Shown in pieces: positions 4,987 through 47,396 of a stretch of DNA of 47,396 nucleotides. The translations under genes were made by a program, and so were the position numbers. The notes beneath the pieces were generated by a model. The model was given only the letters and a program-made list of their open reading frames with translations. It was not told where the DNA came from and made no database searches. This DNA comes from Rhodospirillaceae bacterium (lineage in GTDB: Bacteria > Pseudomonadota > Alphaproteobacteria > GCA-2731375): NCBI GenBank assembly GCA_018660265.1, contig JABJKS010000083.1:1-47396 (forward strand), given 5' to 3'. Position 1 is the first letter of the stretch, and the number at the start of each line of letters is the position of its first letter.

Positions 4987-5000
4987 AATCTATTAAGGGG

Positions 5001-6562
5001 CACAGGGTGTGTTGCAAAAGTCGCCAATTCTGGCCCTTTAAGTTTTCAGGCCGGATATTGGCAGAGTGTGTTGGTGATCCAAAGGATTGGCTTTGTGAGG
5101 TAGTAGATGGCTCTTTTTAGGCTTTGAAGGGCGATTTGGTGGCGCAAAAGCCGTAAATAGGCCTTGGCCAGCCGTTTCAGATTGATCGCCGCCGCCGTCA
5201 ACCAGGCCTGGATCTGGAGGTTCCACAAACCACGGCGGTGGGCCCTGCTCAGGCCATGGCGGGCCTTGGCTTCGCCATGGATGCCTTCGACCAGGCCACG
5301 GTGGCGGTTCGCGACCGCTCTGTCGATGGCCAGACGTTTGCCGTGCCGCCGCCGAGCCCGCAGCAGCGCGCCATGGCCATCCTTGATGATCAAAGTGCGC
5401 GCCTTTGCCGTTGCAGGGAGGCAGAGCCGCCGCCAATCGCAGGCCGCGCAGTCTTGCCGCCGGGCCCGGTAAAAACGGCCATCACGCCCGGCTCTTGTCC
5501 GGGGCCGTAATGTTGCCCCGCCTGGACAGCGCACCAGATCATGGTGGGCGTCATACTTGAACCGGCTCAACGGCACCTTCGCCTTGCGGGTTCGTTGCGG
5601 CGGAATAACCGCGACCGTGCCACGTTGTTCCCCAGATATTGAGGGCCTGGTAATTGGAGCTATAGGCATAGCCTTTATCCGCCGTGACCAATCCCACATG
5701 CCGCCCGCTTAGGTCTTCAATGCGTTCCAATTGTGCCACCAGGGTGCCACCCTCGTGCACATCGGCGCTCACCACCGTGGCATCAACGACGATGCCGTGG
5801 GCACTGTCCACGGCCGTCAGCTGTCGATAACTGGGCTCCAAAACATGATCCCGACGAGAAGTCGACATCCGCGCATCAGGGTCCGTCGAGGACAGTTTCT
5901 TCAGCTTAGGAGGCTTTGCCTTTGCCGGGATGCCGCCCGCATCATTGTCCGAGCCGTCATCCTCAACCCCAGACCCATTGCCAGGCTCATTCGCAGACTC
6001 AACAGCCGCGACATGGCCCAGCGCCAGGCTGTCCCAACTGACATCGGCCCGGATCAAGGTGGCATCCACATGGACCACATCGCCCACCACCAGACCGGCC
6101 TCAAGGCAGCATTGAACACTGCGCTGAAACACCGCCCGAAAGCGATCCGCCCCCCAACGTTGGCGGATCCGGCTCAAGCTCGAATGATCGGGCAGCGCTT
6201 CATGCAGGCGATAGCCGATGAACCAGCGGACCGCCAGATTGACCTGCGCCTCCCGCAGCAAGGCTCGGCCATGCACGATGCCGCACAGCAGACCGGCAAG
6301 CATCAGCCGAACCGCGACCTCCGGGTCGATCCCAGGCCGGCCCTGGTCAAGATCATAACAATCCGAGACTTCTTCTCTCAGCCAGGACAGATCCAAAATC
6401 AGATCAACGCGCGCCAGAATATGATCGTTCGGGATCAAATCACGCAATGAGCCAGCAACAAACAACTCATCCTGTCGGCGATCACGATGGGACAACATAT
6501 TCAAACCCTCCGATTCAATGCACAAGTGAATCATTCGAAGGACTTTTTCAACACACCCTGTG
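5001..6562 (-). mobile_element. IS1182-like insertion sequence, about 1.56 kb
   Basis: Terminal inverted repeats bound the element: 5001-5022 (CACAGGGTGTGTTGCAAAAG and two more bases) matches the reverse complement of 6541-6562 with one mismatch. Outside them the left flank reads GGGG and the right flank TCCCCG, so the inverted symmetry may extend a few bases. The hexamer TATTAA occurs at 4991-4996 and 6569-6574, which could be a target duplication if the ends are at 4997 and 6568. The element carries one transposase gene, split by a frameshift. It begins 14 nt after the stop of the FAD/Fe-S dehydrogenase gene and ends downstream of the solute-binding protein gene, so it interrupts no visible gene. 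Confidence 0.88.
5046..6534 (-). pseudogene. IS1182-family DDE transposase, frameshifted
   Basis: The N-terminal part, 6534 (or the better start at 6498, MLSHRDRRQDELFVAGSLRD) down to 5551, has the family's DUF772-type start (ALPDHSSLSRIRQRWG) and the DDE half (VVHVDATLIRADVSWDS, VTADKGYAY). Family-like sequence then continues in another frame down to 5046: GTVAVIPPQRTRKAKVPLSR, FKYDAHHDLVRCPGG and a C-terminal IHGEAKARHGLSRA segment. The two frames must join around 5620-5645, needing a +1 shift near a GGGG run. Homologues are normally one reading frame of about 450-480 residues, so this copy is probably inactive; sequencing error or recoding at the G run cannot be excluded. Confidence 0.85.
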
Positions 6563-6574
6563 TCCCCGTATTAA

Positions 6575-20639: not shown

Positions 20640-21562
20640 AATACGGTTTTGCCAGTATCGTTCTGCGCCGTCGCCCGGTTCAGCAATTGGCCAAAACAAT
20701 CCTGTTGGAACAGACGATCTGATCCCGTGGTTGTACCTAGCGCGCTTCCGGGCAATTGCGACCCATTTGATGGCATCCACGAGCCATTCGGGTAGGCGCG
20801 TCGCGTAGCGCGATGTGGTTCATCGGGCAAGCGGCGTAACGCATCCGAATGGCTCGTGGGTGCCACCGGAGGCCGTCTCACCAAACCCTGTGGCGGCGTT
20901 ACGGTCCTTGGGAGATGCCCCACATCGCCCGTCGAACCGCGCCTACCCACAGGGATTGGTAAGACGGTCAAATGGGTCGCAATTGCCCGGAAACGCGCTA
21001 GCGCCATGACATCCTTCTGGCGGGGAACGGCGTCTACATGAGAAACCCGATAGGGGCTATTCGCATCGTCGGCATACAAAAACAAATGCAGCACGCATCG
21101 GCCGGCAACATATTGCCAGACTTCTGCCGGTGGCTCGTTGCGGCGAAGGGTCGGTTTCCCCAGCATCGCGCCCAATTCCCGACGGTCTATGCCGACGAGT
21201 TGACGTAGGTCCGGGGCCGGCGTCAAGACCTTGTTTGGCGGCGGTTCAGGAAGTGTCACGGGTCGTTTCACGGCAGGCAACGTAGATGCTGCGGGGGGTA
21301 CGGGCGGCTGATCGGGGATATTCTTATATGATCGCTGGCGCGGGCCATCCGCGACCCCTGTGTCGTCGGATTTGTGGCCAGTGTTATCAATGACAGGTGC
21401 CTGGACAGGTGCCTGGGTTCCCGGAACGCTGGCAACCGGCGTCGCCACCGTCTCGAAATTCGCGGGTTTCGACACTTCGCCACTGTTTTGACCACCGGCA
21501 CAGGCAGCCAGCCATAACGCCATGCCCAGGGGACAGAGAACCCTTAGCGTCGCAATCTTCAT
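20636..21562 (-). CDS. Lipoprotein interrupted in frame by an 87-codon palindromic element
   Basis: From the ATG at 21562 the protein starts with a lipoprotein signal peptide ([21 protein letters not shown], lipidated Cys21), then a proline-rich linker (about 25-110) and a compact domain ([38 protein letters not shown]). At residue 187 the reading frame enters a 261-bp palindromic element and leaves it at 275 into [20 protein letters not shown]. Removing 261 bp restores [12 protein letters not shown], a smooth junction and a 221-residue protein. The insertion keeps the frame and has no stop. It probably splits the C-terminal domain whose Cys in QQDCF may pair with that in AGRCV. The function is unknown; an outer-membrane location is likely. 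Its stop overlaps that of the Trm112 gene. Confidence 0.85.
20741..21001. repeat. 261-bp palindromic (MITE/RPE-like) element, copy A
   Basis: The ends are inverted repeats of 34 bp: 20737-20770 (CTAGCGCGCTTCCGGGCAAT and onwards) against 20968-21001, 33 of 34 matching. CTAG at 20737-20740 and 20998-21001 may be the target duplication. Inside is a perfect 15-bp hairpin, 20777-20791 with 20845-20859 (CCACGAGCCATTCGG / CCGAATGGCTCGTGG), and a third inverted pair around 20872-20892 and 20948-20968 (CCGTCTCACCAAACCCTGTG against CCGTCTTACCAATCCCTGTG). It codes for no transposase. It lies inside the lipoprotein gene, and 261 is a multiple of three. A relative is at 47288-47396. Confidence 0.9.
21392..21415 (-). 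repeat. 12-bp tandem duplication in the lipoprotein linker
   Basis: GACAGGTGCCTG is present twice, at 21392-21403 and 21404-21415, giving the repeated QAPV in the Pro-rich linker of the lipoprotein. The 12-bp unit preserves the frame. Confidence 0.8.
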
Positions 21563-46205: not shown

Positions 46206-46274
46206 GTTGGATGCCTGACTAACATTTTGGCTGATACTAGTGCCCGTCACATATTTGGCAAGCAGCGAGGTGCC

Positions 46275-47291
46275 ATGCGTTATTTTGTTTTGGTTGGAGC
46301 GGTCATCGCGACCGTGGCGGCGTGGACGGGCTATTGGTTTTATGCCGCCGGGTTGGTCGAGGCGGACTTGGCGAGGCGGGCCGAACAGAAAGGCGGGCCA
46401 AACAGCACTGGGGTGCAACTGGTTTTTGAGAGTTATGAGATCAGCGGTTTTCCCTATCGTATTCAGCTCACCCTGAACAAACCCACAATTATCCTTCACA
46501 ACGAAACACAGGAGATACGTTGGCAGACCGATCAAATAAAGGCCGTCGGGCATCCCTGGCAACCACGGCATGTGCTTTTTGATCTGACCGGCGAACATCA
46601 TCTTGAGGCGGATATCGACGGCCAGTTGCGCAGCCTGGACCTATCCAGCGATGCAGCCCAGGCCAGTGTCGAGACTGAAGCAAATGGCCGCCTGCAACGA
46701 TTGTCCCTGGACATCAAAAATATCCTGGTGCGGAACCAGGGCCTGGAAGCCTTGCGTGGACAGCGCCTGCAAGTGCATGTCCGCCAGACCCCCGGCAGCG
46801 CGAATAGTTTGGACCTTGCCCTCAGTGGCCATACACTGGAATTGCTTGGGGAGGGCCTGTCGGAACTATCCTTTCGGCAGTTGCCCCGGAATATCAAGCT
46901 GCTGGACCTGCAATCAACCGTCACTGAATTGTCGGAAAGTTTGCCGCAATGGCGGCGACAAGGCGGCACGGTGGAGGTGCGTAAACTACAACTTCATTCG
47001 GGCGAGATGGAGATTGCCGCTACGGGCAGCCTGGCCCTGGATGATCAAATGCGCGCCATCGGGGCCCTGACCGCAAAAATCAAAGGCCATGATGAATTGC
47101 TGCATATGGCCGTGGCCAATGGCGGTATGGATGAAGATCAGGCGTCCGTGGCGCGGGCCGTGCTGGGGCTATTGGCGGCGGCGGGCGGCGGCATCCTGTC
47201 CGTGCCCGTACGCCTGCAGGATGGCTTGCTTTACCTTGGCCCCGCCGCTGTTGCGCGGTTGAGACCCCTGACAACACCTGGCCCAAATTAG
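46275..47291 (+). CDS. DUF2125 domain-containing protein
   Basis: The 338-residue protein has one N-terminal membrane anchor (YFVLVGAVIATVAAWTGYWF) and a long beta-rich extracytoplasmic DUF2125 region, with the characteristic FESYEISGFPYRIQLTLNKP near residues 55-74 and a final ILSVPVRLQDGLLYLGPAAV. Function is unknown; the family is alphaproteobacterial and thought to be periplasmic or membrane-bound. The start at 46275 follows GCGAGGTGCC; the frame from 46227 adds 16 residues. The TAG stop (47289-47291) coincides with the left boundary of a palindromic repeat element, so the natural C-terminus may have been changed. Confidence 0.88.
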   Translation: MRYFVLVGAVIATVAAWTGYWFYAAGLVEADLARRAEQKGGPNSTGVQLVFESYEISGFPYRIQLTLNKPTIILHNETQEIRWQTDQIKAVGHPWQPRHVLFDLTGEHHLEADIDGQLRSLDLSSDAAQASVETEANGRLQRLSLDIKNILVRNQGLEALRGQRLQVHVRQTPGSANSLDLALSGHTLELLGEGLSELSFRQLPRNIKLLDLQSTVTELSESLPQWRRQGGTVEVRKLQLHSGEMEIAATGSLALDDQMRAIGALTAKIKGHDELLHMAVANGGMDEDQASVARAVLGLLAAAGGGILSVPVRLQDGLLYLGPAAVARLRPLTTPGPN

Positions 47292-47396
47292 AGCGCTTCC
47301 GAGATATTCTGATCCATTTGATGGCGTCCATAAGTCATTCGGGCAAGCGGGGCAACGCATCCGAATGGCTTAGGGTCGCCACCGAAGGCCGCCCAC
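47288..47396. repeat. Palindromic element, copy B (cut by the window end)
   Basis: From TTAGAGCGCTTCC the sequence follows copy A (20737 onwards): GCGCTTCCG, 12 diverged bases, then CCATTTGATGGC at the same spacing. The 15-bp hairpin is kept with different bases: CCATAAGTCATTCGG (47328-47342) and CCGAATGGCTTAGGG (47361-47375). Compared with A, a 35-bp module between the arms is absent. Sequence after the hairpin (CCACCGAAGGCCG) still matches A. The right end lies beyond the window. Confidence 0.85.

Follow-up and report, generated by a model that had tools for sequence, protein, structure and literature searches.

A probable IS630-family MITE with an unusual Y-shaped fold that recurs across the Alphaproteobacteria

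The stretch of DNA analysed here, referred to as the window (47,396 bp), is one whole contig (C12) of a 5.5-Mb Rhodospirillaceae genome that is spread over 121 contigs. It carries two copies of a repeated element: copy A is complete, and copy B, which adjoins a DUF2125 gene, is truncated, with the contig end at 47396 falling inside the element. The features concerned are the following:

46275..47291, plus strand: DUF2125 gene (PF09898, E 7.7e-52, profile positions 1-318 of 319), with its stop on the element boundary
47289..47396, plus strand: copy B, made up of the left terminal inverted repeat, an arm 1 that lacks its tip, the junction and the first part of arm 2 (from blastn and from its alignment with other copies)
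47289..47291, plus strand: TAG in which the TA of the target is followed by the element's first base; it also serves the DUF2125 ORF as stop codon
47289..47321, plus strand: left terminal inverted repeat of copy B, a type-1 end of 33 nt
47322..47387, plus strand: arm 1 module of copy B, from which 35 nt of the tip are deleted (columns 51-85 of alignment A1 empty in copy B only; match to covariance model R1)
20738..21000, plus strand: copy A, a complete 263-bp element with a three-stem (Y) fold, preceded by C and followed by G (CTAG target)
20771..20871, plus strand: arm 1 module of copy A (R1, 113.9 bits; copy A is among the source copies of R1)
20867..20967, minus strand: arm 2 module of copy A, an inverted copy of the arm 1 module (R1, 73.1 bits on the minus strand)

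The ORF list also holds a longer version of the DUF2125 gene with a TTG start at 46227. Copy B starts at 47289, one base after the position given in the first-pass annotation (47288): its left repeat matches positions 231-263 of a full copy on the minus strand (94%), other copies share this end, and the TA within 47289-47291 would represent the target duplication. R1 matches 47322-47387 of copy B with 50.5 bits, and the 35 nt absent from its arm are present in the other ten copies of alignment A1. Copy B is a family member with damage to arm 1 that breaks off where the contig stops. Its right flank has to be sought on a different contig, beyond the end of another transposase-like gene: the tyrA neighbour is found on contig C116 of the same genome (locus L191), which starts with this gene end followed by TAACTAATC. 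There was probably a second insertion between copy B and tyrA.

Copies A and B are 79% identical over 61 nt and 85% identical over 53 nt. In the 15-bp stem, positions 4 and 5 are C-G and G-C in copy A and T-A and A-T in copy B, and position 8 is C-G in copy A and T.G in copy B. The first-pass annotation had described these paired differences correctly, but had overlooked both position 3, which is A-T in copy A and an A.G mismatch (no pair) in copy B, and the 35-nt deletion. It had also taken copy B to be the changed one; the paired difference at positions 4 and 5 is real, but across 50 full copies it is copy B that holds the common state and copy A the rarer one: position 4 (columns 44-138) is U-A in 31, C-G in 12 and G-C in 6, with one copy unpaired, position 5 (columns 45-137) is A-U in 44, and position 3 (columns 43-139) is unpaired in 11 of the 49 copies that have letters on both sides. 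Since the stem of copy B is moreover identical to those of three other copies in its own genome (C104b, C71 and C54), the difference between A and B at positions 4 and 5 is a single subfamily difference and not two independent events.

A blastn search of the own genome with a complete copy gave 32 matches, some of which are the second strand of one copy. Matches were found in 15 of the 61 genomes tested, 13 of these 15 belonging to the same family; with at most 12 candidates scored per genome in this survey, the copy numbers are lower bounds. Our main set comprises 50 full copies from ten genomes, the own genome and nine relatives (11 own, 12 from G010, 12 from G002 and 15 from seven others), and the corresponding 50-row alignment (A2) excludes copy B as well as partial copies, the duplicate locus L097 and additional copies from G010. 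The element is exactly 263 bp long in 37 of the 50 (range 261-274 bp), which is too short for a transposase gene of its own, and has TA at both termini in 44. Judged from the flanks, the target was CTAG for 29 copies, TTAG or CTAA for 12, TTAA for 7 and ATAT for 2. The terminal inverted repeats measure some 33 nt, and their sequence varies between subfamilies and largely agrees within a copy. Two loci from genome G014 (L037 and L210) show single-arm versions, in which the core lies in one long hairpin with TAG-type ends and which look as though they had lost an arm. A described Rfam RNA family was rejected as identity of the element: five loci searched at E up to 1 gave four matches, all under the gathering cut-offs (the highest being malK-III with 30.9 bits, where the cut-off is 50), and no match at the gathering cut-off was obtained for 11 distant loci. 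One exact pattern from the core, searched against viral_contigs with regard to a viral origin, had no matches, and no description of this element was recognised among the open-licence papers retrieved, as judged by titles and abstract beginnings.

The complete element is predicted to fold with a minimum free energy of -185.4 kcal/mol (z = -15.3; none of 200 shuffles as good), compared with z = -2.8 for the fragment of copy B alone (2 of 200 shuffles as good). This Y fold consists of a 33-bp terminal stem and two arms. RNAalifold on the 50 copies yields 91 pairs, in 59 of which both sides have changed; 96.9% of cells are paired against 84.8% in shuffles, double-change cells number 470 against 103, and the covariation score is 0.352 against 0.121. 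Kinship of the copies can beat such shuffles without any structure; a control that preserves kinship, sliding the partner by 1-3 columns, lowers the score to at most 0.063. The fold is therefore well supported by covariation, and the expectation of the first-pass annotation that stem changes would prove to be paired in a larger set of copies is borne out for most of them, with the pairing also holding in distant genomes. Its further claim, that the hairpin itself is under selection, fares less well: pairing is indeed kept, but the cause is less clear, as template-switch repair of a palindrome would give the same result, and it may well be a mixed one.

The boundary TAG of copy B does serve as the stop codon of the DUF2125 ORF, as had been noted at first, and from this it had been proposed that the element redefined the end of the protein, leaving it shorter or changed. 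Besides the shared TAG, this proposal can draw on the last residues, which differ from those of the nearest relative. Against it, the match to the Pfam profile extends as far as position 318 of 319 and nine relatives from the same genus end within three or four residues of the same point, three residues earlier in eight and one later in G006 (read by eye), and inspection by eye of the stretch at the DUF2125 stop in all nine showed no copy of the element. A marked shortening is thus refuted, and we regard a redefined protein end as very unlikely overall, although a shift of the last few residues could still have taken place. The stop codons of the nine relatives are of all three kinds; the nearest relative has TAA, and in G006 a TAA lies within ATTAACTAATC, which suggests that the insertion of copy B occurred at the TA of a TAA stop and turned it into TAG, probably leaving the protein end unchanged (compared by eye). 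More generally, since the element starts with G after the TA, landing on a TAA or TAG stop would leave a TAG and keep the protein length, an outcome that copy B exemplifies and that may hold as a rule.

In 24 of the 50 full copies, one or both ends coincide precisely with the stop codon of an ORF at least 80 residues long, a count that may include ORFs interrupted by an insertion within a gene and thereby ending at the boundary TAG; for DUF2125 the C-termini were compared with those of relatives. A special affinity for stop codons is not needed for this figure, which the TA/CTAG target can explain: CTAG is rare in the window, with 21 sites outside copy A against about 177 expected from base composition, and of these 21 sites five are stop codons, seven lie inside genes, where insertion would be harmful, and nine lie between genes (with a crude choice of ORFs as gene set). 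At two loci (L014 and L030) both ends are located on stop codons of converging ORFs, so that one element supplies two stops.

The ends of the element match those of IS630-type insertion sequences from the same genus. A candidate helper from the same genus (L138) spans 1052 bp between the ends TAGAGCATTTCCGAC and TAGAGCGTTTCCGAC, encodes a DDE_3 transposase and is preceded by C and followed by G; a second candidate IS630 helper from the genus (L145) has the ends TAGAGC and TAAAGC, which fit the second MITE subfamily, and two further loci (L201 and L198) show single matching ends adjoining transposase fragments. These six ends agree with the nearest MITE repeat at 22-26 of the first 29 nt, compared with a median of 13 for 1030 background 29-mers starting with TAG, a set to which copy B itself contributes and in which three 29-mers reach 20. 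The insertion target of IS630 elements is TA (PMC2170065). The ends of IS630 type and the match to a TA target, mostly CTAG, lead us to read the element as an IS630-type MITE. For CTAG in particular, a study by Tenzen and Ohtsubo from 1991 reportedly names a preference for the TA in this motif in its title. Searches of the own genome gave no IS630 element with matching ends: there were two DDE_3 matches, scanned for the type-1 end only, with none within the fetched stretches, and a search with the L138 transposase gave one match of 32 residues. R1 likewise detected no module beside the 24 loci fetched for matches to DDE_3 or to the L138 transposase.

On the strength of these sequence comparisons we consider it very probable that the element is a non-autonomous mobile element of the IS630 family (Tc1/mariner type), that is, a MITE, whose unusual Y fold is met again elsewhere in the class. 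Its layout would be that of some 263 bp in which 33-bp terminal inverted repeats surround two inverted hairpin modules of about 100 nt with a conserved junction, one strand folding into the Y. As the matching ends and target suggest, the transposase of a related IS630 insertion sequence would bind the terminal repeats, and the element would be pasted into TA, mostly within CTAG, with duplication of the TA.

Two hairpin modules in inverted orientation also invite comparison with REPINs, and the element could alternatively be a REPIN-like pair of palindromes moved on single-stranded DNA by a transposase of the RAYT type (Y1/HUH). Such a mode of transfer would be in keeping with the strand-specific wobble bias of arm 1 described below; matches to Y1_Tnp (PF01797) were obtained in 10 of the 11 genomes tested, three of them in the own genome, and long ends alone do not speak against it, as long terminal inverted repeats are described on either side of some tyrosine transposase genes (PMC3733652). 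However, the core motif was absent at up to five mismatches from all 25 Y1_Tnp loci, the covariance model gave only weak matches there (L237, 25.3 bits, E 0.003; L235, 15.3 bits, E 0.64), and the ends of the element match IS630 elements instead. An origin from a RAYT/REPIN system is thus not supported by either core motif or covariance model, and we judge it highly improbable. The short repeats that flank the three Y1_Tnp genes of the own genome (L219, L229 and L234), such as GGGGACACAATAC in L219 and GGTGACAGTGCACT in L234, belong to a different repeat family. A further transposase locus lies in the window itself: at 4997-6566, a pair of 26-nt inverted repeats (92%) encloses two minus-strand ORFs that overlap and encode transposase domains (DDE_Tnp_1_6; DUF772 and DDE_Tnp_1). 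This is an insertion sequence, probably with a frame break.

Returning to the fold of the putative MITE, paired changes are usually taken as proof that a fold is selected, and the presence of many copies per genome in several genomes makes it possible to separate selection from template switching in one data set. Template switching copies one arm of a palindrome onto the other, so that paired changes would arise as a mutational by-product with no need for selection on the fold; it has been proposed to create and maintain hairpins and is described for RNA hairpins (PMC8794818). Counting changes by parsimony on a FastTree tree of the copies, we found that double changes from one Watson-Crick pair to another are split almost evenly between transitions and transversions (33:31 in the terminal stem, 27:24 in arm 1 and 27:26 in arm 2), a ratio about the same as that of single changes in unpaired columns (113:129), which fits template switching. 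Branches shorter than 0.03 carry 31 double changes beside 56 one-sided ones, which again fits template switching, with the reservation that tree errors would inflate the double changes on short branches. Pointing in the same direction, the 12 similar copies of G010, of which the ten without indels are 92-99% identical, have four different Watson-Crick states and four A-C cells at a single terminal pair. Template switching could explain much of the covariation.

Strand symmetry can separate template switching from selection. With pairs picked by RNAalifold on the plus strand and the terminal stem and arm 2 serving as controls, departures from Watson-Crick pairing in the 50 copies amount to 39 G-U events against 8 A-C events in arm 1 (p 5.5e-6); the corresponding counts are 18 to 20 for the terminal stem and 23 to 25 for arm 2, neither of which is biased. 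Template switching gives no reason for such an asymmetry. The arm 1 count stays at 37-39 to 8 when arm 1, arm 2 or the ends are in turn left out of the tree, and a tree-free count finds only G-U in 14 arm 1 pairs and only A-C in 3. After exclusion of pairs with a G-U majority, the ratio in arm 1 is 22 to 8 at the base (p 0.016), 14 to 0 in the middle and 1 to 0 at the tip; in arm 2 it is 21 to 17 at the base and 2 to 8 inside, which is the opposite lean (p 0.11). In the unpaired columns of arm 1, C>T changes are no more frequent than G>A changes (8 to 12), so that a plain deamination bias is not likely to be the cause of the G-U excess. We take the preference of arm 1 for G-U over A-C as a hint, of modest evidential weight, of a functional form that is single-stranded, with selection on one strand. 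An explanation of the paired changes by template switching in place of selection on the fold remains a serious contender in our assessment, albeit one to which we give somewhat less than even chances. Both processes may act together: the stems are seen to stay complementary as their sequence turns over, and this could come about through template switching that corrects the arms combined with selection that keeps the single-stranded form of each module, be it RNA or single-stranded DNA.

The covariance model R1, which describes arm 1 with 26 segments and 35 pairs, was built from alignment A3, consisting of 23 of the 50 rows of A2 and three chosen segments from G012. At E up to 1e-5, values that are rough owing to a short calibration, R1 matches 20 of 289 genomes of the class Alphaproteobacteria, three from the same genus and 17 from 14 other families. 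Many matches are adjacent pairs on plus and minus strand, that is, two inverted module copies per element. R1 matched both modules in 18 of 20 loci examined (all except L260 and L269), and the outer stem scores at least 18 in 18 of the 20 (all except L259 and L251), the second module of L260 and L269 being assumed without a model match in this outer-stem analysis. Both modules and the outer stem are present in 16 of the 20 loci. These represent the own family (by G012) and 12 others, with lengths of 263-279 bp; their ends differ greatly, and the stems have been replaced but are paired. A locus from another family (L035) and the copies in G012 have the same layout as the element.

In 24 best-scoring modules from distant genomes, 96.6% of cells are paired, three or four Watson-Crick types are represented at 24 of the 35 pairs, and G-U exceeds A-C by 36 to 5 cells (16 pairs to 2), figures that come from an alignment fitted to the structure of the model with the better-scoring strand kept, which favours pairing and, slightly, G-U. 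This bias, too, speaks against template switching as the whole explanation, as do some unpaired letters that are nearly invariant in the distant modules, although the model that found these modules also uses sequence. For the second modules, the G-U to A-C ratio is 24 to 11 across the distant loci (12 to 5 by pairs) and 37 to 16 within the own family (13 to 9 by pairs), neither being significant by pairs. The inner modules are conserved much further than passive filler of a MITE would need, and the MITE explanation alone does not account for this. As a tentative reading, which we hold to be possible but short of probable, the inner module would be a functional single-stranded nucleic acid (RNA or single-stranded DNA) that is kept across the Alphaproteobacteria inside IS630 MITEs, the ends of which have been replaced to suit different transposases. 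If so, a mobile element would carry a conserved structured part that serves the element or the host, for example as a hairpin at the 3' ends of mRNAs. As R1 reaches 14 families beyond the own one, 12 of them with at least one locus in which both modules and the outer stem are kept with ends and stems replaced, a possible function of MITE interiors becomes testable.

Amongst known systems, REP/REPIN elements with their RAYT transposases resemble the element in that they form hairpins in inverted pairs, which is the REPIN layout, and are present in many copies, but no association of the element with Y1_Tnp genes was seen here. REPs are also much smaller, at 20-40 bp, and are tagged GTAG or CGTC (PMC3733652). 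CIR from Caulobacter and Brucella is an alphaproteobacterial intergenic repeat with TA termini, two long inverted-repeat arms and a linker, and a proposed fold that is conserved between species (PMC2229807). It is described as having about 110 bp and GANTC, and is listed without terminal inverted repeats (PMC2229807); the element shares the two arms, the linker and the TA termini, yet has 263 bp and a 33-bp terminal stem. RUP from Streptococcus pneumoniae, a MITE of IS630-Spn1, is likewise a small non-coding repeat with IS630-like ends and a TA target, and is credited in a review with no other signature of structure or function (PMC2229807). Unlike RUP with its 107 bp, the element has 263 bp, a Y shape and two conserved inner modules. 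In common with MITEs of the IS630 family, the element has no transposase gene of its own, is shorter than about 500 bp and carries IS630-like terminal inverted repeats, for which candidate partners are present in relatives from the same genus.
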